Below, one piece after another: positions 15,202 through 61,747 of a DNA stretch of 64,000 bases. Within the stretch, counting starts at the first letter, position 1. Each line of letters starts with the position of its first letter. The translations under genes and the position numbers were made by a program. Source of the DNA: Thraustochytrium sp. TN22. Its lineage: Eukaryota; Sar; Bigyra; Thraustochytrida; Thraustochytriidae. The notes below the pieces were generated by a model. The model was not told the DNA's origin, ran no database searches, and saw nothing but the letters and a program-made list of their open reading frames with translations. The stretch is taken from positions 35,493 through 99,492 of the forward strand of contig JABLUY010000139.1 of NCBI GenBank assembly GCA_013306675.1, in the 5' to 3' direction.

Positions 15202-15232
<31 letters not shown>

Positions 15233-21664: not shown

Positions 21665-24004
21665 TCAAAGACTTGTCACAACGGCGACAGGGTCGTCGTC
21701 GACGAGGAGCTCAGGACCGGGAAGAACCGGGTAATGGACGCCGCGCTGCTGGTCCCAGCGATTGAAAACCGCCATAATCTTGTCCTGCCAGGTCTTGAAG
21801 GAGAAAGAGGAGCGGTCCACGTTCGGCTTGAAAATGGAGGTGCTGTCCGCGCCTGCTCCGCCGGGGTCGTCACCTGCCCCGGCAGCCACGAGGCGGTGGC
21901 CAAATCCCTGCGCGCCCCAGTACAAAATCTTGTCGGTTTTGTTGACGCGGATCATGGACTCTGTGGGCGGTGGCATGAGGGCCCCGTAGAAGGCCTGCAG
22001 CAAGACGCTCGGGCCAGCGATCTCGCGCGTGGCGCGAGTCTCGTACTGCGACCACCCGTCGCGCCCAGTCAAGACGCGGAGGAGGTTCATGAAGGCAGCT
22101 CTGGCTGCCCTGGACATGAGGAAGTGGCCTGGCCGGTACATGAGCGCCCACTGTGCAAGCACGGCCTCGGTCGAGGAGGTTGAGACACTGTCGACGTCGA
22201 GTGGTACGAACTCGCGCAGCGGGGCCAAAGCGTGCGCGCCTAGGTCCAGAAAGACGCCACCATAGGTGAGCACAACGAGGTAGCGCCATAGGTCGGCGCG
22301 GACCGTCTCAGAGGCCAGCGTGTCGAAGAGCGGCACAAGCTCGCGAAACTCGGAGCGCCCCACGAAGCGGCGTGCGGCCGCGTCATCAAAGATGTAGACG
22401 TCCCACTCAGGATTCGCCCGCAAGAAAGCGCGCAGCTGCCCGCAGCGCGTGACGCCCATACTGCGGCTACTGGCACGCACGAAGACGCGACGCGGGATGA
22501 GGGCATCAGGTTTGGGCGCGGCGGCGGGCACGAAGAAAGGCACACCGGTCACGCCGCGGTTGTCGCAGGAGATGCGGTCGACTTGGACGCGCGGCGGCAT
22601 GTCCGGGATCATCCGGTAGCCGAGCGGGTCGGGCTGGCCGACCTGGACGGGGAGTGTTCCGCGCGTGGCGTTCACGAAAACCCAGTCGGGCCCGGGCACC
22701 GCGGGGAAACTGACGTTGCGCTGGCGGTCCCACCGTGCAAAGGTCTCGGCGATGACGCCGGCCCAGGTCGCGTAGTCGAAGTCCGTCCTGTTCACCTCGG
22801 GCCGAATGGCTGAGACGGCGGTGTTGGACCAGTGCGCGCGCCTCCAGGTGTTCTTGCCAGCCCGCGCCTGGTCAAGGTCCAAGTTGGCGTCCTCGCGCTT
22901 AAAGTCCATCCAGTTGTTGCGTACGCGATCGCCGAAGCTCTGGGTAGTGTAGAGCAGCATCTTGGCGTTGTCGTCGAGCGGGAGTGTGCGCGCGTCCTCG
23001 AAGGCGCGGGACATGGCGGGCGGGCCGGAGATGTACTTTTTGTCGACGAACTCGTGCCTCTCCCAACCGTCGACCTTCTTCATGACCTTGAGCACGTTCA
23101 TGAAGGAGTCTCTGGCGGCCCTGGCAAGCACGTGGTGGCCCGGGCGATACATGAGCGCCCACTGCGCGAGCATGCCGTCTGGCATGATCGAGGAGACCAC
23201 TTCGGCATCCAGCGGGACAATCTCGCGCAACGGGGCGTTGATGTAGGCGTCCATGTCAAAGTAGACGCCGCCATAGCTGAGCAGAACCAAATAGCGCCAG
23301 AGGTCGGCGCGGATGGCGCCGGTGGCCACGGCGTTGACGAGCGGCACGAGCGCGCGGAACTCACTGCGCACGAGCCAGTCCTGCACAGCGGCGTTGTCGA
23401 AGAAGTAAATGTCCCACTCCGAGTTGTTCTGCGCCAGGTCGAGCAGGCCTTGGCAATGCTTGGGTCCCACGATGCGCGTCCTCGCCGTGAGGAAGATGCG
23501 GCGCGGAATGAGGGCGTCCGGCTTGGGCTGCGTTGCCGGCATCAGCTCGGGCAGCTCTGTGTTGGCCTTTTCGGCGCACGCGAAGCGCGGCGCGCTCGCC
23601 TGAACATGCGGCGGTTTTCTGCGCGGCTCTACTCTGAAGCCGAGCTCGCCCTCGTAGTCGGCGGGCGTGAGCCCCCCCTCTGCTGCTGCTGCTGCTGACG
23701 GAGACCTGCCCTCGTCCTCGTCCTCGCCGACATGGTTCTCCTCGGGCGCGGCCGGCGCCGCGGGCTGCTCGCCGGTCACGCTGGCCTCGCGTAGCCTGGG
23801 CGCCGCGGTGGCCTCGTTGGCCGCGCCCGCCACTTCAGAAACGTGGACGGCGTGCTGCACCCTGCCTGTGAGCGCGTACGGCGCCGCGGTGAGCACGAGA
23901 CACATGAGCACGCCCAGCGCCAGCGCGCGCCGCAGGCTGCCCTGGCCGCTGCTGCGCGGCGACCGCGGCACGCTGCCTGCCGCCAGTGGCGACCGCGCCA
24001 CCAT
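21665..24004 (-). CDS. Two-domain GT32-like glycosyltransferase with a degenerate second domain
   Basis: 779 residues from the ATG at 24004. Signal anchor at about 27-45, followed by an Ala/Glu-rich stem (about 55-130). D1 (about 140-440) is of the B subtype, with DMD (250-252), YISGPPAM and FGDRVRNN motifs intact. D2 (about 475-765) carries the A-subtype signature SMIRVNKTDKILY, but its DxD reads DLG (587-589; codon GGC at 22238-22240), a one-base change from Asp. Domain order B-A is the reverse of the A-B order in its neighbour, so this gene is not a simple copy of it. Probably a Golgi luminal enzyme in which only D1 is catalytic; donor and acceptor are unknown. Confidence 0.9.
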   Translation of the reverse strand: MVARSPLAAGSVPRSPRSSGQGSLRRALALGVLMCLVLTAAPYALTGRVQHAVHVSEVAGAANEATAAPRLREASVTGEQPAAPAAPEENHVGEDEDEGRSPSAAAAAEGGLTPADYEGELGFRVEPRRKPPHVQASAPRFACAEKANTELPELMPATQPKPDALIPRRIFLTARTRIVGPKHCQGLLDLAQNNSEWDIYFFDNAAVQDWLVRSEFRALVPLVNAVATGAIRADLWRYLVLLSYGGVYFDMDAYINAPLREIVPLDAEVVSSIMPDGMLAQWALMYRPGHHVLARAARDSFMNVLKVMKKVDGWERHEFVDKKYISGPPAMSRAFEDARTLPLDDNAKMLLYTTQSFGDRVRNNWMDFKREDANLDLDQARAGKNTWRRAHWSNTAVSAIRPEVNRTDFDYATWAGVIAETFARWDRQRNVSFPAVPGPDWVFVNATRGTLPVQVGQPDPLGYRMIPDMPPRVQVDRISCDNRGVTGVPFFVPAAAPKPDALIPRRVFVRASSRSMGVTRCGQLRAFLRANPEWDVYIFDDAAARRFVGRSEFRELVPLFDTLASETVRADLWRYLVVLTYGGVFLDLGAHALAPLREFVPLDVDSVSTSSTEAVLAQWALMYRPGHFLMSRAARAAFMNLLRVLTGRDGWSQYETRATREIAGPSVLLQAFYGALMPPPTESMIRVNKTDKILYWGAQGFGHRLVAAGAGDDPGGAGADSTSIFKPNVDRSSFSFKTWQDKIMAVFNRWDQQRGVHYPVLPGPELLVDDDPVAVVTSL

Positions 24005-24685
24005 CTTGCGCGGCCCGTCGCGCCTGTCGGCGCGCCCGCCTCCGGTGACCAGGAGTTCAGGTTTTGCGACGAGTCGAGGCTTGCGAGCTCTGGCTGACGT
24101 GACTCGATGATGGAAGACAACACTACAGAAAGGGCGCGTGCCTTGCAGGCTATGACGGCAGACAGTGAGCGCGTCGGAGCGGCAGAACGCGCGCGGCCTC
24201 ACAGGCTGGACGTGCGCAGATCTAACTTAGGTTAGGCTCGTCAAACGCAGCCAGGCGCCCATCAGAATCACACCGCTGGCTGCCCCTTGGAGAGCTCGGC
24301 GTCTGGGCTCTCGGAGCAGTTACCGCAGAAGCGGAAGTGACTGTGCCGCGAGGTCCGTTGACCGACTCACGCATCCGTGTCAAGCATTGCGCCAGTGATG
24401 AGAGGAGAGACTGCACCCTGCTTGCGTTGAAGCGGCTGTCGCAAGCAGCGCAAAAGGATGAACATGAGGTTGGGGTGCGGATCAAGAGATGCTTGGACGT
24501 TGATTGGACCAACAAATCGCGGTCCGCGGCGTCGGGAAGCGCCGTCACTGCAGTTGCAACTCAGCCCTCCGTCGATCCCGCGTTGGATTCCATGGATGGA
24601 AGAAACAAACATGGAATCAGAAGAAACTGTGATCCAAGGAGGCAAGAGCACGAACCTGAGCCCGTTTTGACCGTATCCCGCCCCT
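24005..24685. other. Intergenic region upstream of glycosyltransferase gene 3
   Basis: Promoter side of the two-domain gene starting at 24004 and part of the spacer towards gene 4. No convincing coding sequence; the short open frames have no recognisable content. Confidence 0.4.
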
Positions 24686-26489: not shown

Positions 26490-28927
26490 GGTCGCGGCGC
26501 GCTGCTTGCTTTGCTCTGACCGAACCCCTGCCTGCCGCCGCCGTTGTCGCGGCTTGTCGCGGCGCGCGGGCGAGGCCACACTCACAGCGACCGCGAGCGG
26601 CGCGGCGCGGCGCGGCGCGGCGAGCGGCGCGGGGGCGCTCCGCTCTCCGAGCCCGCCGAAGTTCAAGATCAGGTGCCCCCGCGTCTTCCGTCGCGACGAG
26701 TGAGTTGCTCGCCGACGTTAGTCCGCGTGAGTCCACGTGAGTCCTCCGCAGCACTTGGCGTGGACGGCGTCCGCGGCACTAGGCCGAGGATGGGTGTGCC
26801 CGGCCATCACCACTCGTGGTCGCACCTCAGAGGCTCAGGCTGGCGCGTGAAAACCGAGGCTCTGACTGGATCATGACATCATGTGGCTGCGGCAGGCGCG
26901 GCTGTCACAGCGAGAAGCATGCAGAGTTGTCTCGAAAGGAGCTCAGCGCTGCGCTGCGAGGGAGCTGCAGGGAGCTGCAGAGTTGTCTTGTGACTGACCG
27001 GTGCAATGCAAGGTTCTTTTCACTGATCTTATGAGTCACTCTCCCATGTCAGTGACACTCTGATCACAGGCTCGGCTGCTGCACATCAAGTTCTCAAGAG
27101 CCTGCCAGAGCGGTTGCCCGGCCTGCCGGTGCAGTGCAGTGGTTGGTTCGAGTGAGCGGGCCCCGGCCTGTGTCCGCATCGGTGCAGGATGACCGTGGCA
27201 CGGTGGCTGCAACACGAAGTTGTTCGAACCCGCTCCAAATCAACTTGAAGCTTGGCATTGGCAAGGCTCACTGAAGCCGTAACGTTACCATCACTGGCCG
27301 ATCGGACTCGTACTCGCCACTAGGCTAAGCTGGCCATGATTGCTGGTGCCTGGTCCCTGGATGAGTCACAGGCAGACGACACGACACGCCTCGAGCTACG
27401 CCAACCTCCCACCTCAGCTGGCTTACCGTTCGGTTCAGACCCTGTCCACTGCAGGCCGGCACTGCCTGAGACGGGCATGGCATGGGACGCGCAGGAACCC
27501 CCGTTGGAGGTCGTTATCGCCACAACGTCAAGCAAACGTCGATTTTTGCCCTCCCAGGCACAGGCAGGCCTGCGCCAGCTAGGCCAATTTCTCGACCGTC
27601 ACCTCCCTCGCTCGCTCGCTTCTGCAAGGGCCGGCGCCTGCTTCGCGAGCGTCTCACCGGCCCGGGCACTCCGCTCGCCGTCGGCGGCGTCCGAGTCCGC
27701 GTCCGCCTCGCCGCAGCCACTGGCAGACTGCCGCACCCAAGGCACAAGTTGAAGCTGCCGCGCCGAGCGACGTCACTGTCCCCTCGCCGCGGCGCGCGCA
27801 ACGCATCTCGCGGCGCGCCCCGGCCGCACCGGACCCGGCGCGCGGCGGGTCCCGCGGCTGCCGCCGGCGCGGCGTCCGGTGCGCTCGGCGCCGGCACCAC
27901 GTCGGTGCCGCTCCGGCCACACGCCGCCTCCAACGAACAGTCTCAGTCCACGCCGCCCGCCACGGCTGCGCGCTCGCCGTTGACGTCGAGGCCGACCGGG
28001 GCTGCGGTGGAAGCTGGCAGCGCGGCTCGGCGGCTCGGCGGCGCTCGGCGCCACTGGCCAGCGGCGGCGCCGGCCCGGCCGCCTCGATTGGCCGTGCTCG
28101 CTGCTTGTCGCAAGGTGACAGCGACGCCGTGCTGCCGGCCGTGCAGCACCAGGTGGCTGCGTGGGCGCGGCGGCGCACATCGATTGCAGCGCGGTGCTGG
28201 CGGCCAGCCAGCACCGCAGCGCGCGCGAGCTGGCACCGCGGCGCCGCACGAACCATTGCACCGCATCCACTGCGAAACAGTCGTCCGTGGCGAGGCGAGG
28301 CGAGTCGAGGCGAGGCCCTCTCGTCCCACCAGCCTGCAGTGCTCGCCGGAGTCGCGCGCTCTGTGCCACCAACGGCCTCGCCTCGCCTCGCCGCGCGAGC
28401 TTACTTCACGCGGCGCGGCCAAAGCGACTTCGCGCCGCGGCCTCGCCGCTCCGCGCCTCGCTTCGCTCCGCGCCTCGCCTCGCGCTTGCGCTCGAGTCCT
28501 CCTCCTTCATCGCCTTCATCCTTCGCTCGGCGATTCCGGCATTCATTCGCGCCGGGAACAGCGGGAGGGTAACGCCGGGAGCGCCGGTTGCGCGTGACGT
28601 TCCTGCCTAGAGGGGCGGGAAGAGCGGCGGCGGGCGCGCGGCAGGCGGCGCGCGGGGGCCTGAGCGCGCGGGAGACAGAACCCGATCGCAGAGGCGGCCA
28701 CGGCGAGCGCGAGCGGCGAGCGCAGCAGGCGAGCGCAGCAGCGGGCGGCGGCGAGCGGCGAGCGGCTCGCGCGGGCGTGCGTGCGCGCGCCGGAGACCCG
28801 GCAGCGGCTCGCAGCGAGGGCGAGCGTCAGCAGGCAGGCAGTCAAGCGAGGCGGCCGCGTCCCGGCGGAGGGAGGCAGGGAGGCAGCCGGCCGAGCGCGA
28901 GCCGGCGAGGCAGAGCGAGACGCGAAG
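26490..28927. promoter_or_regulatory. Long divergent intergenic region
   Basis: About 2.4 kb between divergent genes (glycosyltransferase 4 and PAPS reductase). The inner part (26750-27600) is closer to balanced composition; the outer part (27750-28927) is very GC-rich with GGCGA/CCTCG runs. Many two-strand open frames have no recognisable content. No transposon ends or RNA genes identified. Confidence 0.4.
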
Positions 28928-30523
28928 ATGTTCAAGACGCTGGGCAGAGGCGCGCTGGGCGCGGTGCGCGCCGGCGACCGCAAGCGCGCGTTTAGTGCGG
29001 CAGGGCAGACGGCAAAGCGCGCGCTGTCGGCGGCGACCGTGACGCCCGGCGGCGCGCGCGGCGCGCAGGTGCGCGAGCAGCAGCACAAGCTCAGCACGGC
29101 GGCGGCCGTGCAGCCGCCGGTGGCGCCCCAGCTGGATGGCGCCACCGACCTGGAGCGCATGAACACGGAGCTGGAGCGCTTGGAGCGCGACCCGCTGTCC
29201 GTGCTGCGCTGGGCCATGGAGGAGTTCGACGGCCGCCTGGCCATGAGCACCTCGTTCGGCATCCAGTCGGCCGTCCTCCTGCACCTGGCCACCCAGGTCA
29301 AGCCGGACATCCCGGTCGTCTGGGTGGACACGGGCTTTCTGCCCGAGGAGACGTACAAGTATGCCGAGATCCTGCGTGAGACGCTCAACCTCAACCTGAC
29401 CGTCTCGACCAACTCGCAGTGGAGTGCCGCGCGCATCCAGGCGCTCTACGGCAACCTATGGGAGAGCGAGGACGCCGAGGCGCACGCGCTCTACGGCCGC
29501 CTCACCAAGGTGGAGCCCATGAAGGCCGGCCTGGACTCGCTCGAGCCCAACCCGCTCGTGCTGCTGTCCGGCCTGCGCGCCTCGCAGACCAAGGCGCGCG
29601 CCAACATGAAGCCCATCGGCTTCCAGCAGGGCCGCTTCAAGCTGCTGCCCATGCTGCGCATGACGGACGACGACGTCGCCGCCTACATGGACCAGCACGA
29701 CCTGCCGCAGCACCCGCTGCAGGCCAAGGGCTACGTGACCGTCGGCGACTGGCACTCGTCGCGCCCGGTCGAGGAGGGCGAGGACCCGCGCAACACGCGC
29801 TTCGGCGGCAAGTTCCAGGAGTGCGGTCTGCACGTCGATTCGCACGAGCCCGTGACGCCGGCGCCCGCTGTCAAGCCCGCCACGCCGGCCGCGGCCGCCG
29901 CTGTCAAGCCCGCCAAGGCCGCTGCCGCCGTCAAGCCCGCCGCGCCCCAGCGCTTGCTGCCCGAGTCGCTCGAGAAGACCGGCGTCAAGGCGCTCGGGCT
30001 CACTCGGCACAACCCCGAGACGGACGTCGCCACCATCATGGTCAAGAAGCTCACTGAGGACGGCTCCTACTGCCGCAAGTGCAACGACGTCGCCGACAAG
30101 ATCGAGAAGGACGGCATCTCCAACTGGATCGGCCACACCGCCGTCGCCAACGTGCTCGACCCCACCAGCGAAGGCGCCGTCCTCGCGCGCCACTTTGGCG
30201 TCGCCACTGCCCCCTTCTTTCTCGTGCGCGACGCCGCCGAGGAGGCCCAGGACGGCGAGTGGAAGGTCATTCGCTCCTACCTGCAGCTCCGCAAGCTCCT
30301 CGAGAAGGCCGCCGAGCACAAGGCCGCCACCCTCGAGGTCGCCTCGCCCGAGGCCCATGCCAAGGCCGAGCACGACCCGACCCTGGTGGAGGCTCGCGCC
30401 AACCTCGACTCGATTCAGTCCGAGATCGCTCGCCTCCAGCTCGAGCTCCGCGAGAAGCAGAACGCCGCCGCCGCCGTCGAGAACCAGCTCCACGGCCGCG
30501 CCGCGCAGCTCGGCCTCGAGTAA
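28928..30523 (+). CDS. PAPS reductase fused to a CxxC thioredoxin-like domain
   Basis: 531 residues. The N-terminus (about 1-45) is Arg/Ala/Ser-rich without acids, like an organelle transit peptide. Residues 75-305 form a phosphoadenylyl-sulfate reductase (CysH) domain: STSFGIQSAV (108-117), VWVDTGFLPEETY, RLTKVEPMKAG, and the catalytic ECGLH with Cys299. The paired cysteines that hold the iron-sulfur cluster of APS reductases are absent, so PAPS is the likely substrate, yielding sulfite. A VKPA-repeat linker (about 315-338) leads to a thioredoxin-fold-like domain with CRKC (382-385) and a TAPFF cis-proline-type motif (428-432), which may re-reduce the enzyme, as the C-terminal domain does in plant APR. 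The C-terminus (about 480-531) is a coiled coil. The gene end is duplicated downstream. Confidence 0.9.
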   Translation: MFKTLGRGALGAVRAGDRKRAFSAAGQTAKRALSAATVTPGGARGAQVREQQHKLSTAAAVQPPVAPQLDGATDLERMNTELERLERDPLSVLRWAMEEFDGRLAMSTSFGIQSAVLLHLATQVKPDIPVVWVDTGFLPEETYKYAEILRETLNLNLTVSTNSQWSAARIQALYGNLWESEDAEAHALYGRLTKVEPMKAGLDSLEPNPLVLLSGLRASQTKARANMKPIGFQQGRFKLLPMLRMTDDDVAAYMDQHDLPQHPLQAKGYVTVGDWHSSRPVEEGEDPRNTRFGGKFQECGLHVDSHEPVTPAPAVKPATPAAAAAVKPAKAAAAVKPAAPQRLLPESLEKTGVKALGLTRHNPETDVATIMVKKLTEDGSYCRKCNDVADKIEKDGISNWIGHTAVANVLDPTSEGAVLARHFGVATAPFFLVRDAAEEAQDGEWKVIRSYLQLRKLLEKAAEHKAATLEVASPEAHAKAEHDPTLVEARANLDSIQSEIARLQLELREKQNAAAAVENQLHGRAAQLGLE

Positions 30524-37606: not shown

Positions 37607-38504
37607 GGTCTCTAGCGCCTGCTGCGCCTCCTTCGTCTGCTCGCGCCGCCTGCGCAGGCGGACGCCTGCGAGCGCGACGAAGAACAGCGACGGGATACTG
37701 TGCGAGTGCGCGAGCTCCACCTCGATGATGGCGAGCGTGGCAAGGCAAGGCAGGCCAAGGCGAATTGCTCTTCTTCGTTTTTATTGCAGCACAGTGCAGG
37801 GGCAGTGCAGTGCGCAATGCAGTGCAACGCTGCGCAATGCCGACAAGCACGGCTGGGACGGGACGCCTGCCGCCCAGGGCCATCTTGGCCAAAACGGAGC
37901 CTGGGGTCGGTGGGTATCGGGCGGGCGCCCGCGGCGAGGGCCCCCGCGCGCCGCTCCCCCGCGGCTGTCCACCTGACTCCACCGGCAGAGCGGCGCAGAG
38001 CGGCGCAGAGCGAGCATGTGGGACTGTCCGGGGGCGCGCGGGTGGTCCCCGCGCACCCTTGGGCCACGTGAAACGGTGCTGACAGTGAGGATGAGCGCGC
38101 CTGTGATGCCATGATGATGATGATCGCGCGCCACCCGCGGGCGGGCAAAGCGCCGAGCACAGCACTGCAAGCCAAAGCATGCAAAAGGCGAAGCCAAGAC
38201 GAAGGCAAGAAGGAGGAGGAAAGACTGACGCAGAACATGCAGAGGAGAGGAAAGAGAGGCGAATGCAGGGAGGAATCCCGCGGCGCCCGAGTTAGATTGG
38301 CTGATTGATTACGTAGGATACGGGACCGATAGAGCGATCGATGGATCACGCGAGCGAGCGAGAACGAGCGAGCGGGCTTTTATTGCGTCAACCTTTTCCA
38401 TGCAACCTCTCTCGCTTCGGAACTTGGCCAGGATGATCTCGCCTGCGTGTCGCTTGGCGCCGGTGTCGCTTCGTTTGGCGCGCTGGCTTCGTCTTGCACT
38501 GGCG
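37607..38504. other. Intergenic region upstream of the F-BAR gene
   Basis: About 0.9 kb, promoter side of the F-BAR gene and 3' side of the TLDc gene. It contains a GTGCAGTGC-type repeat (37795-37830) and ATGATG triplets (38110-38125). No gene recognised. Confidence 0.4.
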
Positions 38505-39485
38505 TCACGCGAATTGGCTCGGCTCGGGCTCTGGGAGGAGCGCCCAAGCCTCGAACGCAAGCACGTCGAAGAACGACTCCTTGCAAAGTGGCGAGGCCAG
38601 GCCGAAGCGACGGCTTGCGGACGATCCACCCTGTGTCAGGTCGGCGTCCAGCCAGAAGCCATCGCTGGCGAAGCTCAAGTGAGATGGCGAGGCCTCCACG
38701 AAGGCGGCCTGCGCGTCGAGCGGCCGGTACACGTGCGCCTCCGGAATAATGTGACGATGCGCGGACTCGTGCGTCCAGACTGAGGAGTAGTGCGGCGCAA
38801 GTCGATTGCAGCGGCCCGACGGCGCGTGGCCGCCCGCCCTGTGTCGCACCAGCGAACTGCAGGCGTCCGCCGGCAGCGAGAAGAGAAAGGAGTCGCCGCC
38901 GCCAAAGCGCACGACCGTCGACCCGGGCTGCGTGCCGGGCTCCTGCCAACCGCCCTCGGGGCACACGGCCGTCGCTCCAATGAGTGTGCCATCGTTCACG
39001 CGCACTACCATCACGACGGCCGCCTCGCCCGCCACCTTGCGGTAGAGTTGCGTTAGTGTCGGCCGCGCAAAGCCCAGGCTGAACGATTTGCGCCACGCGC
39101 AGTGTCGCAACCCGCGCGGCAGCGCCCTGCGCAGCTCCGCCAGGTGGATGGGCTGCAGCAGGGACGAGTGCCCCGCCATGACCACCAAGGGGGGCGTCAC
39201 CGGCAGCGGCGACTCCGACCGCGCCAGCACCATATTCCTGGCGGACGCAGGCTCGCGAGCGCTGCGCTCCTTTTCCGGCTCCGCCTCGGCCGCGCCGAAG
39301 AGGCTCATGCTCCCCGACGGCTCCACCGCCGCCTCCGAGGCGCCCTCATGCTGCAACAGCGGCTGGTGCTGCTGGTCGCACCCATCGTTGCTCGGCTGCA
39401 CCGCGGCGCGCCCGCGCGCCCTGTACTCGCCAAGCCACTCCTCCGTATCCTCGCAGCACTTGCACTGGCAGAACGCGTTGCCCAT
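38505..39485 (-). CDS. TLDc-domain protein with N-terminal acylation motif
   Basis: 326 residues from the ATG at 39485. The N-terminus MGNAFCQCKCC gives Gly2 with Ser/Ala-type context for N-myristoylation and Cys6/8/10/11 for palmitoylation, so membrane anchoring is likely. The C-terminal part (about 115-326) is a TLDc domain: RHCAWRKSFSLGFARPTLTQ, VVMVVRVNDGTLIGATA, GGGDSFLFSL, and the end-block GFWLDADLTQGG then SPLCKESFFDVLAFEAW. TLDc proteins (OXR1, NCOA7, TLDC1) bind the V-ATPase and protect against oxidative stress; TLDC1/MEAK7 is also N-myristoylated. Whether this one does so is inference. An upstream in-frame ATG at 39632 gives an Ala-rich leader that would block myristoylation and is not preferred. 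Confidence 0.88.
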   Translation of the reverse strand: MGNAFCQCKCCEDTEEWLGEYRARGRAAVQPSNDGCDQQHQPLLQHEGASEAAVEPSGSMSLFGAAEAEPEKERSAREPASARNMVLARSESPLPVTPPLVVMAGHSSLLQPIHLAELRRALPRGLRHCAWRKSFSLGFARPTLTQLYRKVAGEAAVVMVVRVNDGTLIGATAVCPEGGWQEPGTQPGSTVVRFGGGDSFLFSLPADACSSLVRHRAGGHAPSGRCNRLAPHYSSVWTHESAHRHIIPEAHVYRPLDAQAAFVEASPSHLSFASDGFWLDADLTQGGSSASRRFGLASPLCKESFFDVLAFEAWALLPEPEPSQFA

Positions 39486-41308
39486 CCCGCCCACGAGGCT
39501 CCGCACGCCCGCGAGCACCACAGCCGCGGCCTCGAAGCAGCCCGAGGCTGCCGTTTTCGCCGCCGAGCCCCGCAGAACTTGGCCTGGAGACCCGCCGGCG
39601 CCGCGAGCGGCTGCTGCTGGTGCTCCTGGCACTGCTGGCGCTTGCTTCGCGTCGCTTGGGCTCCGGGCCTGAGCTCGTCTTTCCCTGGCCAGCTCGTCCG
39701 TCTGCAGCTCTGACTTGGCTCGTACAACTCACGCGTGCTGCGCAAAGGTAGGCAGGCAGGCAGGCAGGCAGGCAGGCTGGTGCCTCCCCGCGTCCCCGAC
39801 TAGCAGCCGCGCCGCGCTCCGGGCCGCCGTCGCCGTCGCGAGCGCCTCGTGCAGCCAGGGAAGAAGGAGAGGACGCGCCGCCACGCAGCAGCGCGCGCGC
39901 CTTGCGCGAGCTCCGCCACAGCGCCGCCGCCCCCCTCGAGCGTGACGGAGTCGGCGGGGTCCGAGCTGCCGCTCGCGAGCGAGCGGCCGTAGTCGACCCA
40001 GGCAACCAGGCGCACCCCGAGCAGGCAGGCGGCAGCCGGGCAGGCGAGAGCAGGCAGGCAGCCGGGCAGCCAGGCGCCAAGCCTCGCGCCTTCTGCCGCG
40101 CGCGGCCGCGCCACCGCCGCGCAGGGCCGGCGCTTGTCGCCTTGCAGGTCTGGGACTCGAGCGAGACGCAGGCAGGCGCAGCGGCGGCGTACTAAACGCC
40201 GTCCAAAACCGGAAGTTCTCCCGCTCACAGCCTGAGTCAAGCCAAAGATGCCATCTTGGGCGCGCTCACGCCGAGCGCTCCGCTCGCGCGAGGACGCTCA
40301 GCGCTGCGACGGACGCGCGCTCGGCCGCGGCGGTCGGCTTGCTTGATTACCTGATTCCTTGCTGCCTGCCTGGCTGGCTGGCTGGCTGGCTGATTGGCTG
40401 GCGGGTGAGGCCTGGCTGCGCGAAGCCGAGCCCCGAAAGCGCCAGGCGCTGCAGCGCAACTGCGAGACCACCGTAGAGGCGCAAAAGGCCGTGATCAACG
40501 CTATCGCTCTGCCAGAGGCTGACAAGGATGTTTTGGACGGGATCCCGCTTGATGACTGACTCTGGTCGAGGTCCGTCTTGTGTGTGTGGTTCGCAAAGTG
40601 ATCAGCAGGTCAACGATGGAGCAATCTTGAGGATTTCGTGAGTGCGGTGACGGCGGCTCCGAGCTGGATGCGCTTGACGAGATGCTATACTAGTTGTAGC
40701 AGGCCGGCTGCACCTCCGCTGGTCGCCTGCGGTCCGAGCCGAATCGTTCGACTTGAAGGTCTAGATTGTCGGTCGGCCGCGGCTTGGTCCCCCTCTTGTT
40801 ACTGCCTCTTTCGCCTTCCGAGTCTCATGCTGCTCGCGCATGGTGGCGATGTGCGGGCGTCCGACGGCGACAGCAAAGCTCGACCTCGCCCGCGGGGCCG
40901 TCACGACTCGCGACTCGGACGAAGGGGCAGCTTCGCAGCGCCCGAGTCGAGTCGAGTGAACTGCAGCTGACTCCGAGCTGCCAGCTCCGAGCTGACGCTT
41001 CCGGTGCTCTTTGTTTGGATTTGCCGTGCCTCGCGACGGCAGCGGGCCCGCGGCGGGCGCGCGAACTAACGAGGAGGCGCGCGAGAGCTGAGCGCCAGCA
41101 CTGCAAGGACGCCGCAGGGCGCCTGGACGCTGCCTCTGGCAGCCACTGGCAAGATCGACGTCGCTGGTCGCGCGCACCACAATTCACGGTCCGCTCTCTC
41201 TGGCCACGGTCAGTCAGCGCGTTGCTGCGATGGGTGTCGCGCTGGCAGAGGGCGCGCTCGGAGCACGGCAGACACCGATCTTCGTGGAGGAAAGTCGAGG
41301 CCGGCAGC
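39486..41308. other. Long intergenic region with a possible small coding exon
   Basis: About 1.8 kb between the divergent TLDc and GPx genes. It contains GCAGG (39750-39780) and TGGC (about 40371-40400) runs. A plus-strand open frame ending TGA near 40559 encodes a charged, non-repetitive C-terminus (CETTVEAQKAVINAIALPEA, then DGIPLDD) that could be the last exon of a small gene, but I could not find its 5' end. Confidence 0.4.
40401..40559 (+). CDS. Possible last exon of a small unrecognised protein
   Basis: About 52 codons of balanced composition (WLREAEPRKRQALQRNCETT and on to an acidic DGIPLDD end) stand out from the surrounding low-complexity DNA. They sit just after a TGGC repeat and a GGGTGAG that could serve as a splice acceptor. 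No upstream exon with a credible donor was found, and I recognise no family. A plain ATG-started version would begin inside the TGGC repeat. Low confidence. Confidence 0.25.
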   Translation, partial: AGEAWLREAEPRKRQALQRNCETTVEAQKAVINAIALPEADKDVLDGIPLDD

Positions 41309-42100
41309 ATGATGTCGAGCGTGTACGAGACCACGATCAAGTCGCTGGAGGGCAAGCCGATGGATTTCGGCGCGCTGCGCGGCAAGGTCCTGGCGCTGGT
41401 GAATGTCGCTGGCCAGTGTGGGCTCACGAAGCGCGACTACGCCGGCCTGCAGCAGATGCACGAGGCGTACGCCAAGGACGGCCTGGTCATCATTGGCTTC
41501 CCGTGCAACCAGTAGGTCCAAGCGCAAGCGCAAGCGCACGCGAGCGAGCGAGCGAGCGAGAAAAGGAGCGAAAGGAAAGGAAAGGAGCGACGGCGCGCGA
41601 AGGCACGAAGCGGTGGGACTGACACAATGGCGCCGCTCGCAACGCACTGCAGGTTCGGGGAGCAGGAGCCCGGCGACGCAGCGGAGATCCGCGACTTCGT
41701 GAGCAAGGTACGTGCTGGGCTGCATGCATGCATCGCGCTCGACCTCGCCGGGCTGACTCGGACGGCATCGCCTTGTTGCAGCTCGACCCGCCCGTTACCT
41801 TTGCCCTCACGGAGAAGATCGACGTGAACGGTGACAACGCGCACCCGCTCTGGAAGTACCTGCAGTGTACGTTGCCTCCGCCTTTTCGCCTCAGCTAACC
41901 CCAGCCTGACATGTGGGCGCCTCGCAGCCGTCAGCAAGCGCGACCCGCCGGCCATCAAGTGGAACTTCACCAAGTTCCTCGTCTCGCGCGACGGCCAGAC
42001 CATTGAGCGCTACGAGCCGAAGCAGCCCGCCATTACGCTCGAGGACCGCATCAAGGAGCTGCTCGCCCAGGACGCCGGCGCGCCCACAAGCAGCCTTTAG
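41309..42100 (+). CDS. Glutathione peroxidase, cysteine form (GPx copy 1)
   Basis: 171 residues from four exons: 41309-41511, 41653-41707, 41782-41866, 41928-42100. Introns begin GTAGGT, GTACGT and GTACGT, end CAG, and each has a CTGAC site. The enzyme reduces peroxides using glutathione or thioredoxin. The catalytic position in VNVAGQCGLT is Cys (TGT). Gln in FGEQEPG and Trp-Asn in IKWNFTKFLV complete the catalytic tetrad. It lacks the tetramerisation loop and is the length of monomeric GPx4/plant-type enzymes. Intron positions and phases (2, 0, 1) are identical to those of the next gene, so the two arose by tandem duplication. ATG at 41309 or 41312 may be used. No targeting peptide seen. 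Confidence 0.95.
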
Positions 42101-42687
42101 AACCAATGCGTCGCGCTGCGCGCACAGCAACGAACGAAACTTTTGTCCAATCTCCGGCGAACTTGACGCGCCACGACCTTGGGCGACCTTGGAGCGTCTT
42201 GGAGCGAGCTTGAGCGAGAGCACTGCACGCACGTCAGCTTGCGAGCTGGCTGTACGCGCCGGCCGCGCGCCGGCCGCGCGCAATTTACCGCGCAAAGAAG
42301 AAGGACTCGGAGGCTTTCTTGCGAGTGATCATGACTCATGAGCATGACTTCGGAAGGCAGGCGAGGCAGGAGGCAGTCGTTGACAGTCGTTCTCCCCCCT
42401 CCGAGTCCAGGCCCCGGAAGGCACCCAGCGAATCACGCCTGGCGTGATTCTTCGTTCTTCGAGCGGCTCAAGAAGGAGCGCGAGCGGCAGCCTGGCCGGG
42501 CGGCCTAATGGATAGGCCAGGCCGCGACCGCCCGCGGGCGGCACTGCAGCCGACACGCCTGTGCCGCGCGGCAAACCAGGTTTGTCTCGGGCCGCAAGTG
42601 TCACATCTCGAGCGGTGCGATCGGAGGCGCCGGTGCGAGTCCGCCCAGGAGGTAAAGGTCGCGCGCGCGCGCGCGGAGGCCGGGCAG
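42101..42687. other. Intergenic region between the two GPx genes
   Basis: About 590 bp, 3' flank of copy 1 and promoter of copy 2. It contains short inverted repeats (TCACGCC/GGCGTGA near 42435; CCTGGCC/GGCCAGG near 42490-42525). I saw no SECIS core after copy 1. Confidence 0.5.
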
Positions 42688-42729
42688 ATGCTGAAGGCAC
42701 TGAGCAACCTGCGCACGCCGGCGACGAAG

Positions 42730-43306
42730 ATGTCGAGCGTGTACGAGACGAGCATCAACTCGCTGGATGGCCAGCCGATGGACTTTGAGGCGCTGCGCGG
42801 CAAGGTCCTGGTGCTGGTGAACGTGGCGAGCAAGTGAGGGCTCACCAAGCGCGAGTACGCGGGTCTGCAGCAGCTGCACGAAGCGCACTCGCAGGAAGGT
42901 CTTGTGGTCATTGGCTTCCCCTGCAACCAGTACGTGCTCGCTGCGTGCTTGATTGCTTGGCTAAGCTTGCCGCGCGTGACGAGAACTGACGGGCGCGTTG
43001 GCGGCGTCGCAGGTTTGGAGGGCAGGAGCCCGGGGACGCGGCGGCGATCCACGACTTCGTGAGCAAGGTACGTGCAGACGCGTGCATTGATTGCTCTTGC
43101 CGACGCAGGCTTTTGACTGACTTGGCCCGCGGCCAAAAAAACACCACGTAGCTCACGCCTCCCGTCACCTTCGGCTTGACGGAGAAGATTGACGTGAACG
43201 GCGACGACGCGCACCCGCTTTGGACGTATCTAAAGAGTAAGTCTCGCTGGCCTCTGCTTGGGAGGCGGCATGCGAGCAAAAGGGTGGACTACTAACCATG
43301 GGCACG

Positions 43307-43345
<39 letters not shown>

Positions 43346-43558
43346 CCTTGCACGCGCACTCACGTTCTCACAGACGTCGCAAAGGGCGAGTCGCTCCTGC
43401 CGCTGGCGGCCATCAAGTGGAACTTCACCAAGTTCCTGGTCTCGCGCGACGGCGGGACGATTGAGCGGTACGAGCCGACGACGCCGGCCATTTCGCTGGA
43501 CGACCGCATCAAGGAGATGCTAGCCGAGGAGGCGCCCGCCGACTCGAGCAGCCTGTGA
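42730..43558 (+). CDS. Glutathione peroxidase, selenocysteine form (GPx copy 2, selenoprotein)
   Basis: 174 residues including one Sec, from four exons: 42730-42929, 43013-43067, 43152-43236, 43374-43558. An in-frame TGA at 42835-42837 falls exactly at the catalytic residue (position 36) in VNVASK-TGA-GLTK, where GPx1-4 of animals and algae have selenocysteine and the neighbouring paralogue has Cys. Conserved sequence continues in frame after it for three more exons, with Gln71 and Trp129/Asn130 of the tetrad intact. A SECIS-like hairpin lies about 90 bp after the TGA stop at 43556. Introns start GTACGT, GTACGT and GTAAGT; the third contains a CT run. An upstream in-frame ATG at 42688 would add 14 residues. 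Standard gene callers would truncate this gene. Confidence 0.93.
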
Positions 43559-43642
43559 GCAGTGACAGGCAGCCGTGCATCCACTCAGGAGAGCTAGGGC
43601 ACGCGTCGCGCCCGCAGCGGCGGCCCAGGCTCCGCTTGTCGC

Positions 43643-43716
43643 ACCTGATGACGCTTGGCGAGGCTAAAGCCTCACAGCCCCTTGTGTCAAAAGGGGCGGC
43701 CTCGCCAAGCAGACCT
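43643..43716 (+). promoter_or_regulatory. SECIS element (type II) in the 3' UTR of GPx copy 2
   Basis: Core ATGA at 43648-43651 is followed by a perfect 12-bp helix, 43653-43664 with 43699-43710 (GCTTGGCGAGGC / GCCTCGCCAAGC). The unpaired AAA (43666-43668) sits 14 nt after the ATGA. A second short helix (43677-43683 with 43691-43697, GCCCCTT/AAGGGGC) caps the structure, as in form 2 SECIS. The opposing GA is at 43712-43713. These are all the hallmarks needed for SBP2 binding and UGA recoding. Confidence 0.92.
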
Positions 43717-44209
43717 GGTCTTCGGGCGCATCCGATGGCACGCGAGTCAACCCACAAGACCTTCCTCGCACGCCATCGAGGTGCCCGACCCCCCCCCCAC
43801 ATAAACCGCGACAAGCGGGCCGCGTCGCTGCGCCACGGCTTCGTAGACTATCCCGCAAAGCTCACCGTATCCCCCCTGGCTCGTCTTCAAGCTGCTCAAA
43901 GCTTGCATGCTTGCTTTCGAAAGGATGAAACCGAGCAAAATCTTGGGGTTCTTTTCATCGTTTTGTAACAGCATCGCGGTGAAGTGATGAGCGATGGGTG
44001 GTAGCAGATGTGCCTCTTGTCACCTTCTTGAGAGCGGGAAAGAACGAATTGTGCAGTGGCCGTGGGGACAAATTAAAAGGGACGCGGGCGCTGCGCGAGC
44101 CGTGAGCGCGCGGCTTGCGAGCCAACATAAGAGGTGAAGTCAGGCCCAGAGCGACTGGACAGATCGGATAGGGGACGTGACGCGTGCGAGGCGCCAGCCT
44201 TGCAGTCAA
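43714..44209. other. Convergent intergenic region
   Basis: Rest of the 3' UTR of GPx copy 2 and 3' flank of the Myb gene. A C-run at 43790-43798 and AT-richer sequence at 43915-44080 are seen. No gene recognised. Confidence 0.4.
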
Positions 44210-45883
44210 TTAGACCTTCTCCGTCGCCGCGGCGGCCCTGGGCGTGGTAGCGGCCTTGGCCTTGGCCTTGGCCGGCGCCGCCCTGGTGCGCGTTGCGATC
44301 CTGGCGGCACCGCTGTTGTTGTTGTTGTTGTTGTTGTTGGCAGACACCATGTTGCTGAGGATCTGGAGGTTGGTGAGCGACATGCCACCGTCCTTCTCGG
44401 GCGGCTTGTTGGGCGAGATGGCGCCCGTGGGCTGGGAGACCTTCCACAGCGGCGTGTCGACAACAGCGGGCGTGGCGCCACTGCGCGGTGGCGCCGCGGA
44501 GCGGCCGTTCTCCGTGTTGATGGAGGCCGGCGTGGTGAGGTGCGGGCGCGAGGCGCTAAAGCTGGCGGCGCGGCGGCCGCGGCGCGCGGACGTGGGCGTT
44601 TCCGCGCTGGGACGGCGCACGCTCTCGTCGCCGGCGTCGGCGTCGAGCGCGGCGTTGTAGAGCGAGATGAGCGAGCTCGCCACGGTGCCCTCGGGACCGC
44701 CAGCGCCGGCCTTCTTGCGCGGCGCACGCTTGGCGCGCGGCTTGGCAGCGGGGTTTCCTCCGGCGGAGGCGGCGGCGGAGGCGGCGGCGGCGGCAGCGGC
44801 CGAGGAGGAGACCGAGGAAGCGGGGCCGGTCTTGCGCGCCTTCTTGGAGGGCGACACGGCGGCCTTGACGGGCGCGCGAGAGCGCTTGGCGCCGGCATTC
44901 ATGGTGGTGGCGGCGAGCGTGAGGGCGTCAATCGCGCTGCCGCCCTGCGCGTTGACCTGCGCGATGGCGGCGGCGGCCGCAGCCTCGGCGGCCGCCGCAG
45001 CGGCGCGCGCCTTCTCGGTGGCCTCCTTCTGGTTGACGGTGCGGTGGCGGCGCGTGGCGGCGTTCCAGCGGTTCTTGACGGCGTTCTCCGGGCGGCCCGG
45101 CAGGTAGATCTTGGCGATCTGGCTCCACTTGTTGCCGAGCTTGAGCTGGCCCTCGATCAGGAGCGCGTCCTCGTCCTCGGTCCACTCGCCGTGCTTGATG
45201 CTCGGGTCCAGGTGGTTGAACCAGCGCTCGCGGCACTGCTTGCCGATGCGACCCGGCACGCGCATCGCGATCTCGCTCCAGCGCGTGATGCCGTTCTCGA
45301 TGCACGACTTGATCTTGGCGTCCTCCTCGGGCGTCCAAGGGCCCTTGACCAGCCCGGGCCGCAGCACCTTTTGCCACCGATGCAGACACTGCACGTCGGT
45401 GCGCGTGTCCGCCAGGTACTCGGACGCGATGCGCTTCCAGTTGCGCGCGCCCACCTGCGTTACGGCCAGCTTGAGCGACTCGTCCTCGGCCTTGGTCCAC
45501 CTCCCGGACCCCTTGCCGCCCGGCGGGCTGCTGGCCAGCGCCGCCTCGCGCGCCTTGGCGGCCGCCACGGCTGCCGTCAGCGCGCTCTGCTTGCCTGCCT
45601 CAGGGTCCGCTTCCGGGTCCACCTCCTGCTTGAATCCGACCTCGGCCTCCTCGTCTACGGCCCCCTCCGAGGCATCCACCTTCGGCTTGCTGCGCACGTC
45701 CAGCAGCGTCTCCGCCGCCGAGCTCTCGTCCCGGGCGGCGCCCTGCATGAGCGGCAGCTCCACCTCGACCTTGGTGGGCGGCATTGGCATCGTCGCGGCG
45801 CCCGCTGCGTCGGCTGCGTCAGCAGCGGCGACGGCGGCGGCGGCGGCGGCGCTGGCGGCGCTGGCGGCAGCAGGCTCCGTCAT
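44210..45883 (-). CDS. Three-repeat (3R) Myb transcription factor
   Basis: 557 residues from the ATG at 45883. Three tandem Myb repeats are visible: R1 about 127-175, R2 about 179-227, R3 about 231-278. Each has the regular tryptophans (WTKAED..W..I, WTPEED..W..IA, WTEDED..W..IA) and the R2/R3 block IGKQCRERWFNHLDPSI. This is the animal c-Myb and plant 3R-Myb arrangement; such proteins bind AACNG sites and often control G2/M genes. The N-terminus is Ala-rich and acidic. The C-terminus holds poly-Ala, a basic KPRAKRAPRKK segment and a poly-Asn run (44319-44340). The open frame continues upstream to 46387 through Arg/Ala-rich sequence without a better start. Confidence 0.93.
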   Translation of the reverse strand: MTEPAAASAASAAAAAAVAAADAADAAGAATMPMPPTKVEVELPLMQGAARDESSAAETLLDVRSKPKVDASEGAVDEEAEVGFKQEVDPEADPEAGKQSALTAAVAAAKAREAALASSPPGGKGSGRWTKAEDESLKLAVTQVGARNWKRIASEYLADTRTDVQCLHRWQKVLRPGLVKGPWTPEEDAKIKSCIENGITRWSEIAMRVPGRIGKQCRERWFNHLDPSIKHGEWTEDEDALLIEGQLKLGNKWSQIAKIYLPGRPENAVKNRWNAATRRHRTVNQKEATEKARAAAAAAEAAAAAAIAQVNAQGGSAIDALTLAATTMNAGAKRSRAPVKAAVSPSKKARKTGPASSVSSSAAAAAAASAAASAGGNPAAKPRAKRAPRKKAGAGGPEGTVASSLISLYNAALDADAGDESVRRPSAETPTSARRGRRAASFSASRPHLTTPASINTENGRSAAPPRSGATPAVVDTPLWKVSQPTGAISPNKPPEKDGGMSLTNLQILSNMVSANNNNNNNNSGAARIATRTRAAPAKAKAKAATTPRAAAATEKV

Positions 45884-58124: not shown

Positions 58125-61100
58125 TCACAAGGTAGAGGATGCAGGGAAAACAGAGCCGGGCCTCAGACTACGCGAGTGCCCAATCTGCTTGCGGCGCGTG
58201 AGATCGGCCTCGGTGGGGTTGAAGAGCTGCTGATAAGAATGGGAGACATAGGAGGGGAGAATGGCGACGACGATGATTGCGACAGTGGCAACCCACATCC
58301 CGCGGTCCTCGATGGATTTCTTGATGCCGCGCGCATTGCGGAAAGTGGAGAGCAGCTGCGGCACGGTATCGGTCTCTGACCAGAGGATGAGCGTGGAGAA
58401 CCAGAGGAGCGCTGATAGGACGTAGGAGGCCAGCATGAGGCGCGAGACGGTCTTGTTGACTAGCCAAAGGCGCAGCGTGACGACGACGCAAACGCAGAGG
58501 TGAACGACGACGCCTAAATACCAGATCCCGTGGGTCTTGCCGGACTTGTCGAGGGTATGCGGTACCTCCAGTAGAAGAATTGCTCCGAAGAGCACCACGG
58601 CGGCGTGCATGAAGCCTTCGAGCATCCATTTCAAGAAAATGCGACGCGAGATGAACTCCGCCTTGTGTTCGCGCAGCGAGCCGCTGGCGTAGAGGCGCGG
58701 ATTGCGCATGCTGTATTCGTGGTCGACATCCTTGTCGAGAATGCCAAAGACAATGATAGGAAGCGCAGTGAAGAAGAGATTGTAGCCCTGGTAGAGCGGG
58801 TAGTCAAGGTAGATGGGCTGGCCGCTGGCGAGACACTGAAAGGCGAAGAAGAACTGCGGCAGGACGAGCACTGCGTTCTTGTAGAACATGTAGGAGACGA
58901 GGATCCCGACGCGGCGCGCGGACCAGCGGCCATGCACGAAGAGCAGACGCTTGAGGTATTTGAAGCGCGCAATGGCGAAGTCGGCGGAGTTGGCGGCCTG
59001 CAGGCCCTCCTGACCGTAAATGCCGATGCCAACGTGCGCACGCTGGATCATGGGCACGTCGTTGGCGCCATCGCCGATGGAGAGTGTCCTAATGCTCGGG
59101 TCCGAGTCGCGCACGCCCTGCACGATGATAGCCTTTTGATCGGGACTGACGCGCGCACAGATGACAGATTCGCACCGGTTGGCGAGCCTCAAAAAGGCGG
59201 GCATCATCTTGAATTTGTTGAGAGCGAATACCGCCTTGGTGTCGAGGACAAAGCAATAGAGCTGCTTTGGCGGGGGGCGCTGCTCCATCTGCGTAGCGGC
59301 CTCATTGAGGCGCTCCATGAGGAGGTCGGGTGTGATTGCGTTGTAGGGCAGGTTCTCGAGAAGAAGGTAGAGCAGCTCCATCTTGTGTGTCCAGAGCGAA
59401 CACGAGAAGCCAATGTTGATGGCCGTATCGACCTTGTCTCCGGTGAGCATCCAGACCTTGATGCCCGCCTGGCGGAGTGCGAAGATGGTCTCTGGCACGT
59501 CCTCTTGCAGCTTATCCTCGATGCCGGTACACCCGACGAGCTCGAGCTCGACTTCGATCTCCTCCTGCAGCGCCTCGATCTGTGCCTTACGGTTTTCGAC
59601 CGAAAGGCAAGCAAGCATATACTTGTCGTTCCACCTCTCGTAGACGCTGCGCGGGATGACGCGTTTGGCGACGCAGAGCGTGCGCAGGCCCTCGGTGGCG
59701 AATGCATTGAGCGCCTCGAAGACGTGGCGTGCCGACTCGGACTCGCGATTGGACGGGCTGAGCAGGTCCATGAGGACATTGTCAGCGCCCTTGCAGTGCA
59801 AGAGAATCTCGCCCGACTCAGGATCCTCGAGAATGACGGAGGAGCGCTTGCGGTCACTGGTGAACTCGAGCATGTGCAGCAGCTTGAAGGTAACGGCGCG
59901 CGGCTTCTCTGGATTCAGGTAGGCCTCGTGCGAATGCATGTCGTCCGAGGGTGTGAACTCAATGGTGATGGAGCGCATGCCGCGGCCGCGCAGGCGCATA
60001 CCGTTCTCGTCGCAGAACTGCACAAGCGCGCCCTCGTCTGGCGAGGAGGCCGAGTACACGACCTGGCCCTCTTGGCCGGTCTCGGTGATGACGGAGTGGT
60101 TGAGCGCGAGGCTGAAGATGAGCTGGCGCAAGGCGGTGGCGTCAAGCGGGTCACGCCCGACCAGACGCGTGTTCACGGCATCCGGGTCGACGCGGAACTG
60201 GCTCAACGTGGTGGCGCAGGCCCTGAACTTCATAATATTGGCCGTGAGTGTGCCGGTCTTGTCGGAGAAGACGTGCTCGACGCAGCCGAGTTCCTCGTTA
60301 AGCTCGGAGCAATTCACCTTGGTGAAGCGGCCGCTCTCCGAATGAAACATGCCGAGGTCCCAGGAGATGAAGAAACCCTGCCCGAACTTGACCATGTCGA
60401 TAGTGACGAGCAGAGAGATCGGGATGAAGTTCGTGAAGATGATGACGTAGTTGAAGAAGCGCAGCGACATCTCCTCCGCGAACACCTTGGCAGAGGCACT
60501 CGCCTCGTCTTCATCTTCGCCGTCTGTGTCGCCCACACCCCAGCCCCAGCCCCACAGGTAGCTGTAGGCCTCCACGCCATCGGCGTTCGCACCGGACGCA
60601 AAGGCGGCGGCGAGGCAGAAGATGCACTGCATGGCGAAAATGTAGAGCATGAGCTTCTGGGCGAGGCCCATGATGGAGCTGGTCTTGAAGGAGACCGTGG
60701 CCGCGTTCAGTTGGAGCTTGGTGTCGGGGCCCGCGTAAGCGACCACGCCGAGGACCCAGGGCGTGTTGCGCACCTGCGAGCCGCGAAGGACGATATTACT
60801 CGAGGTGAGCGGGATCTGCACGCCCATGTCGTTGTGTTGGTACGAGAGCGCGCCATCGAAGCTCTCGAGGATCTCGTTGGGCTGGATACAGGCGATGCTG
60901 CACGAGCTGTTGAGCGCGCGCAGGTCATCTGGGATGTCGGGCGCCACCTGGCGTTGTTTGAGGTTGGTCTCGCCGTCGAGACCGGCCGTCATGACATAGA
61001 CGATACCGTTCTTCTCCGCCTCTGTCTGTAACAGGACAACGTCCGCTGGCACCATCTCGCGGTTCTTGAGGCGAACCACAGACCCGACGCGCAGCGCACT

Positions 61101-61514
61101 CCACGTGCGCTGGACAAAGTGCATCTCCCCAGATGCCTCGTCGACGCGATCGAGGACCTCCACGGTGCGCCCGTTCTCCTCCTGGTCAAACTTGTGTCGA
61201 GACCAGTCCTCCAACGCATCCTTGACCGCGGTTACTAGCAGCACGAAGGCCAGCGGAGATGCCATGGACGGGTCCCCGCGCGTGATGGACACCTCCTGCC
61301 ACATTTGCAGTAGCATAATCACGAAGAAGTACACGTTTGCCGCGCGGTGGAACTGCTTCCATAGGTTCAGAAACGGGAAGCTCCAGATTGTGTATCGACT
61401 TGTTCGGATGCGGTTTGTCTTGAACGAGGGATCCGCGCCATGCTGGTGCAGCGCGGTCATGGACTGCAGCAAGTTGAGCGGGAACGAGCGATACTCCATC
61501 TTGCTTGCCGACAT
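58125..61514 (-). CDS. P4-type ATPase, phospholipid flippase
   Basis: 1129 residues, a complete P4-ATPase that moves phospholipids from the outer/luminal to the cytosolic leaflet, usually with a CDC50 partner. Visible in order: NRIRTSRYTIWSFPFLNLW (35-53), first membrane pair (about 57-100), actuator DGET (180-183), PISL in M4 (365-368) in place of the PEGL of ion pumps, phosphorylation motif DKTGTLT with Asp418, KGAD in the nucleotide domain, TGDK and GDGANDVPMI hinge motifs, then six C-terminal membrane spans. The first luminal loop has a Gly/Trp stretch and an acidic segment. Length is typical. The ATG at 61514 gives a short N-terminus like that of plant ALA and yeast Dnf/Drs2 cores. Confidence 0.96.
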   Translation of the reverse strand: MSASKMEYRSFPLNLLQSMTALHQHGADPSFKTNRIRTSRYTIWSFPFLNLWKQFHRAANVYFFVIMLLQMWQEVSITRGDPSMASPLAFVLLVTAVKDALEDWSRHKFDQEENGRTVEVLDRVDEASGEMHFVQRTWSALRVGSVVRLKNREMVPADVVLLQTEAEKNGIVYVMTAGLDGETNLKQRQVAPDIPDDLRALNSSCSIACIQPNEILESFDGALSYQHNDMGVQIPLTSSNIVLRGSQVRNTPWVLGVVAYAGPDTKLQLNAATVSFKTSSIMGLAQKLMLYIFAMQCIFCLAAAFASGANADGVEAYSYLWGWGWGVGDTDGEDEDEASASAKVFAEEMSLRFFNYVIIFTNFIPISLLVTIDMVKFGQGFFISWDLGMFHSESGRFTKVNCSELNEELGCVEHVFSDKTGTLTANIMKFRACATTLSQFRVDPDAVNTRLVGRDPLDATALRQLIFSLALNHSVITETGQEGQVVYSASSPDEGALVQFCDENGMRLRGRGMRSITIEFTPSDDMHSHEAYLNPEKPRAVTFKLLHMLEFTSDRKRSSVILEDPESGEILLHCKGADNVLMDLLSPSNRESESARHVFEALNAFATEGLRTLCVAKRVIPRSVYERWNDKYMLACLSVENRKAQIEALQEEIEVELELVGCTGIEDKLQEDVPETIFALRQAGIKVWMLTGDKVDTAINIGFSCSLWTHKMELLYLLLENLPYNAITPDLLMERLNEAATQMEQRPPPKQLYCFVLDTKAVFALNKFKMMPAFLRLANRCESVICARVSPDQKAIIVQGVRDSDPSIRTLSIGDGANDVPMIQRAHVGIGIYGQEGLQAANSADFAIARFKYLKRLLFVHGRWSARRVGILVSYMFYKNAVLVLPQFFFAFQCLASGQPIYLDYPLYQGYNLFFTALPIIVFGILDKDVDHEYSMRNPRLYASGSLREHKAEFISRRIFLKWMLEGFMHAAVVLFGAILLLEVPHTLDKSGKTHGIWYLGVVVHLCVCVVVTLRLWLVNKTVSRLMLASYVLSALLWFSTLILWSETDTVPQLLSTFRNARGIKKSIEDRGMWVATVAIIVVAILPSYVSHSYQQLFNPTEADLTRRKQIGHSRSLRPGSVFPASSTL

Positions 61515-61747
61515 GGCGCCACTGTGCGCGAGGCACGTCTACGGCACGGCAGGCCGGCAGGGCCGGGCCCGCGCGGCCGGTGAACCTCGGCCAGCGCCGC
61601 GGAGGCCTGGGCAAGGCTGTAGGAGTCGGCAAGCAAGTGGCCAGCACAACCGCGTCGGGTATGCGGGAGCTCGCTTGCTTGCTGCGAGGAAGCGGCTCGT
61701 CGCCCTTGCCCTGTACGCGCGCCCGCGCCCGCGCCCGCGCCCGCGCT

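Follow-up and report, generated by a model that had tools for sequence, protein, structure and literature searches.

A probable selenocysteine glutathione peroxidase of GPX4-like type in tandem with a cysteine paralogue

The gene at 42730-43558 (+) of the window, the whole 64-kb stretch of DNA that was analysed, very probably encodes a GPX4-like (phospholipid-hydroperoxide type) glutathione peroxidase (GPx) in which UGA codon 36 would be decoded as selenocysteine (Sec) via a type II SECIS in the 3′ UTR. A Sec-containing GPx with a type II SECIS was the original prediction, and it stands as the best reading, given a TGA at the catalytic position, the catalytic tetrad, a dN/dS of 0.307, an adjacent Cys homologue, and a hairpin 89 nt past the stop codon. 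The original prediction passed over the Cys twin at 41309-42100. Sec-GPx enzymes are frequent among algae, and mammals have Sec/Cys GPx tandems, so the kind is already known; the gene type itself being familiar, the more interesting part is the side-by-side Sec/Cys pair.

The spliced product of the Sec-GPx gene comprises 174 residues. All three introns begin with GT and end with AG, and the four exons join in frame, the sole internal stop of the spliced frame being the TGA in the context VNVASK-TGA-GLTK; the terminal stop is also TGA. The placement of the internal TGA at the GPx catalytic position was borne out by the spliced translation and by alignment with Cys in homologues, and the three further in-frame exons with Gln71, Trp129, and Asn130 that had been foreseen are present, with GT-AG introns and with Q, W, and N in relatives. 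The third intron contains a CT-repeat run (43311-43345, +). An upstream in-frame ATG (42688-42729, +) would give the Sec copy an extra MLKALSNLRTPATK, an N-terminal extension that is possibly a targeting peptide; an in-frame upstream ATG was looked for in the Cys copy, and none was found. In the proposed mechanism, the four-exon message would be transcribed and spliced, and SBP2, EFSec, and tRNA-Sec would act at the SECIS, leading to the reading of UGA codon 36 as Sec. A search for tRNA genes in the 64-kb window returned none.

Table 1. Features of the putative Sec-GPx gene, its candidate SECIS, and the tandem Cys paralogue.
Feature	Position	Strand	Description
Tandem Cys-GPx paralogue	41309..42100	+	171 aa; exons 41309-41511, 41653-41707, 41782-41866, 41928-42100
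Possible N-terminal extension of Sec copy	42688..42729	+	14 codons; in-frame ATG upstream
Sec-GPx exon 1	42730..42929	+	200 nt; spliced translation
In-frame TGA, proposed Sec36	42835..42837	+	aligns with Cys of tandem copy and bacterial relatives
Sec-GPx intron 1	42930..43012	+	GT...AG, 83 nt
Sec-GPx exon 2	43013..43067	+	55 nt
Sec-GPx intron 2	43068..43151	+	GT...AG, 84 nt
Sec-GPx exon 3	43152..43236	+	85 nt
Sec-GPx intron 3	43237..43373	+	GT...AG, 137 nt; holds CT-repeat run
Sec-GPx exon 4	43374..43558	+	185 nt, terminal TGA stop included
SECIS quartet, 5′ side (ATGA)	43648..43651	+	pattern match
SECIS helix II, 5′ arm	43653..43664	+	12 nt, perfect
Unpaired AAA, SECIS apical bulge	43666..43668	+	fold
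SECIS capping hairpin, type II feature	43677..43697	+	7 bp, 7-nt loop; arms 43677-43683 / 43691-43697
SECIS helix II, 3′ arm	43699..43710	+	fold
SECIS quartet, 3′ side (GA)	43712..43713	+	pattern match

The assignment to the GPx family is settled by sequence alone. The Sec-GPx product matches Pfam GSHPx (PF00255) with 124 bits and an E value of 2.4e-36 (gathering cut-off 27), and the solved chains matched by it are GPX4 (human included), GPX5, and HYR1. The bacterial relatives used for comparison were the best 80 of at least 589 in similarity to the Sec copy. In all of these best 80, Cys stands opposite the TGA codon, and the residues opposite Q71, W129, and N130 are the same; the tetrad TGA36, Q71, W129, and N130 is complete. 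The gene also has what is expected of a selenoprotein gene, that is, an in-frame TGA aligned with the Cys of homologues and coding that goes on past it. At the site of the resolving Cys, both copies have Val83-Ser84; Cys is found at column 83 in 80 of the same best 80 (of at least 589) relatives, in poplar GPX5 the Cys occupies column 84, and human GPX4 lacks one at this site. GPx enzymes without a resolving Cys are typically of the Sec, glutathione-using kind, and the Sec copy, which lacks this residue, fits the GPX4-like 1-Sec type. Such an enzyme would reduce peroxide in a 1-Sec cycle, using glutathione or protein thiols. The GPX4-type Sec-GPx of animals and algae is alike in its GSHPx domain, Sec/Gln/Trp/Asn tetrad, 3′ UTR SECIS, and missing resolving Cys. 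The present Sec-GPx differs from GPX4 in two extra residues ahead of the conserved VTF/VKF strand, and from the GPX4 type in lying in tandem with a Cys copy.

Between the Sec and Cys copies, dN/dS was 0.31 for the full alignment; split at the TGA, the 5′ part gave 0.36 and the 3′ part 0.307. Bootstrapping the codons of the 3′ part gave a range of 0.176-0.514, and every replicate fell below 1. By this measure, the coding sequence 3′ of the TGA is under purifying selection between the copies, which makes a dead copy unlikely. A pairwise dN/dS averages both branches, and hence an extra relative-rate comparison was made. Compared with human GPX4, each copy has 7 private changes, and compared with poplar GPX5, the Sec copy has 9 and the Cys copy 8; judged from these counts, the Sec copy is without excess decay relative to the Cys copy. 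These results bear on the alternative of a recent pseudogene, in which the TGA would be a nonsense mutation of the Cys codon in one copy and the hairpin a coincidence. Although the TGT of the tandem copy is one change from TGA, the intact frame, splice sites, and tetrad, the dN/dS after the TGA, and the lack of a rate excess over the Cys copy all argue against this alternative, which is quite improbable. A gene still of the SECIS-bearing Sec type might also have lost its function very recently. A slower evolution of the Sec copy was considered as well. Of the 80 bacterial relatives (best 80 of at least 589, ranked by Sec-copy similarity), 78 resemble the Sec copy more closely than they do the Cys copy, and a tree with 40 of the best 80 of at least 589 gave branches of 0.068 (Sec) and 0.32 (Cys). 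With the same ranking bias (best 80 of at least 589), 39 of 41 near-invariant bacterial columns are preserved in the Sec copy and 36 of 41 in the Cys copy. Because similarity to the Sec copy had determined which relatives were used, the rate argument from bacterial outgroups was dropped; outgroups not selected in this manner give the 7 versus 7 and 9 versus 8 changes mentioned above.

Elsewhere in the window, TGA reads as a normal stop of the genes. Six of the eight domain-bearing ORFs tested (out of 12 found) end in TGA, and the 6,251 codons of the eight ORFs include 64 Cys codons (53 TGC and 11 TGT), 101 Trp codons, and no internal TGA, the last partly by construction, as the ORFs were taken stop-to-stop. 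The alignment of the TGA with a Cys codon would suit its reassignment as a sense codon (e.g., Cys or Trp) in the nuclear code, but this explanation is scarcely credible given the ORFs that end in TGA, the standard Cys and Trp codons in use, and the TGA that serves as the GPx gene's own stop. It is highly improbable that the gene truly encodes Cys and that base 42837 is a sequencing or assembly error; TGA is one base off TGT or TGC, yet such an error would have had to hit the catalytic codon of the sole window gene with a strict SECIS match behind it. Regarding the other contents of the window, Pfam was searched with 40 of the 83 listed long ORFs; 12 of these carry domains, none of them pointing to a particular lineage. 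Three neighbouring long ORFs of 1147, 857, and 853 aa at 14087-24226 (-) each carry a Gly_transf_sug (DXD) domain and, on this domain content, are a tandem glycosyltransferase cluster. A 619-aa ORF at 28664-30523 (+) has a PAPS reductase domain flanked on both sides by long extensions. A P4-type phospholipid ATPase, whose nearest solved chains are yeast DRS2, occupies an uninterrupted 1137-aa ORF at 58125-61538 (-), which suggests an intron-poor genome; yet both GPx genes have three introns.

The features of a eukaryotic SECIS, namely, NTGA in the 3′ UTR, a helix, an unpaired AA, and GA, are all found behind the Sec copy. The element starts 89 nt past the stop and 506 nt past the TGA in the spliced message; one study puts the minimal UGA-SECIS distance at 51-111 nt (PMC3316567). 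The perfect 12-bp helix is followed by a U-G pair, the 5′ bulge of 11 nt includes the AAA, and a C-A mismatch (43652 / 43711) lies between the quartet and the helix. The fold has a z-score of -3.85, none of 200 shuffles being equally stable, with helix pair probabilities of at least 0.996 and an unpaired probability of 1.0 for the AAA. The type II SECIS had been described as complete, with an unpaired AAA 14 nt after the quartet. The ATGA, 12-bp helix, AAA, capping helix, and GA are indeed present, and the AAA is where it was placed, but the C-A mismatch and the two spacings call for a qualifier to “complete”. The distances from the quartet to the AA (14 nt) and from the AA to the GA (44 nt) lie slightly outside the published SECISearch default spacings of 10-13 nt and 15-39 nt; relaxed, organism-specific SECIS patterns and long mini-stems are described in the same source (PMC2375036). 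A search of the whole window against Rfam at the gathering score gave 0 matches. With E values up to 10, there were seven weak matches in 38000-45000 and four in 43620-43740, SECIS among none of them; the missing match counts mildly against the element, the model having been used without a protist SECIS control. Against the Sec reading stand these spacings beyond the defaults, the C-A pair, and the missing Rfam match, all concerning a single SECIS sequence.

How often such an element would arise by chance was estimated from shuffled and bacterial sequences. The strict SECIS pattern has a single match over both window strands, the 43648 element, and 1 match in 30 one-strand 64-kb shuffles (0.03 expected per strand). 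A relaxed pattern (NTGA, AA or CC) again finds only the 43648 element on both real strands; by chance, 100 one-strand shuffles gave 30 matches, and the 80 bacterial loci, at 984,780 strand-bases in total, gave 3. At the relaxed rates, a lone match anywhere in the window is unsurprising by itself. From the same rates, about 0.002-0.003 matches are expected in the 647-nt flank behind the TGA-bearing GPx, where a match by chance is surprising, and this expectation further disfavours a pseudogene with a coincidental hairpin. When up to two mismatches are allowed, the window has 8 matches versus 3.8 per strand in shuffles; therefore, such loose matching was given no weight.

Turning to the paralogue, the Cys-GPx is located 629 nt upstream of the Sec-GPx, and its catalytic codon is TGT (41417-41419). 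A tblastn search of the window with the Sec protein found two loci only, 41309-42100 and 42730-43558. The Cys-GPx exons are 203, 55, 85, and 173 nt long with introns at the same positions as in the Sec-GPx, and the extra 3 nt of exon 1 are one additional start codon. The two copies are identical at 129 of 170 aligned residues (about 76%), with a dS of 0.45. At residue 34, two positions ahead of the catalytic Cys, the Cys copy has Gly where the Sec copy and all 80 relatives (best 80 of at least 589) have Ser. Between the two copies, neither introns nor flanks match at better than E 0.03, and the duplication is therefore not a very recent one. The Sec-GPx would have arisen with, or given rise to, the adjacent Cys paralogue by tandem duplication.

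Both copies are without the resolving Cys, a feature typical of Sec enzymes, and a Sec ancestor of the pair is thus likely; the sequences suggest that the Cys copy is derived from a Sec enzyme. A change from Cys to Sec would need a SECIS already at hand. The Sec-to-Cys direction is the likelier, by judgement roughly three times so. Within 42101-42729, behind the Cys copy, no SECIS was found at up to two mismatches, and this absence of a trace leaves a past SECIS of the Cys copy unproven. One match with three mismatches at 42338 was considered as a fossil SECIS and was treated as chance. A tentative scenario, possible but doubtful, is an in-place duplication of a GPX4-like Sec enzyme, after which one copy underwent the change of TGA to TGT, loss of the SECIS, and the substitutions S34G and K35Q beside the catalytic residue; both copies would then have been kept as Se-dependent and Se-independent isozymes, usable at high and low Se, respectively.

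Several known systems resemble parts of this arrangement. Sec GPX ranks with the most widespread algal selenoproteins, and over 1000 selenoprotein genes have been predicted in 137 algal species, with tandem selenoprotein clusters (PMC7539508). Mammalian GPX5 and GPX6 are tandem duplicates of GPX3, with an early Sec-to-Cys change in GPX5 (PMC3316567), and the Sec-to-Cys change of GPX6 came with further changes in the catalytic domain (PMC10958145). The mammalian genes are alike in that Cys and Sec GPx result from tandem duplication; they belong to another GPX subfamily and another lineage, and the event described here would be independent. In Fragilariopsis cylindrus, a close Sec/Cys pair of GRX was read as a duplication followed by a Sec-to-Cys change (PMC7539508); that pair differs in being a glutaredoxin with homologous flanks, whereas the flanks and introns of the present copies have no match better than E 0.03. 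As for the SECIS, Ostreococcus and Chlamydomonas have type II elements with a long mini-stem, and the Dictyostelium element has AAA and a mismatch right after the core (PMC2375036). The present element shares the long capping stem with the former and, with the latter, the unpaired AAA and the mismatch directly above the quartet; it differs in that the mismatch is C-A instead of U-U and in the quartet-AA distance of 14 nt. In ciliates, a Sec-GPx without a detectable SECIS and a Cys-GPx with one are reported (PMC7409322), indicating that the TGA and SECIS signals need not always agree. A literature search, weak without the organism name, found no report of the present Sec/Cys GPx pair and, by title, nothing on selenoproteins of thraustochytrids or labyrinthulomycetes. 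A scan of viral_contigs with two short peptide patterns matched 81 stretches, none of them GPx. Phage-filed records, including MW302330.1 and CAKLQH020000028.1, gave 14 GPx-like matches at <60% identity, which are uninformative for the present gene; several of these GPx-bearing records are unannotated and short, or else contain btuE and msrB, and could be host DNA.

Standard annotation would end the Sec-GPx at residue 35 or skip the TGA. If correctly read, the gene marks the host as a likely selenocysteine user. With a Cys twin of about 76% identity and the same intron positions beside it, Sec and Cys could be compared cleanly inside one genome, in a peroxidase free of the resolving Cys, and the tandem pair could be used to study the loss or gain of a SECIS once a gene has been duplicated.
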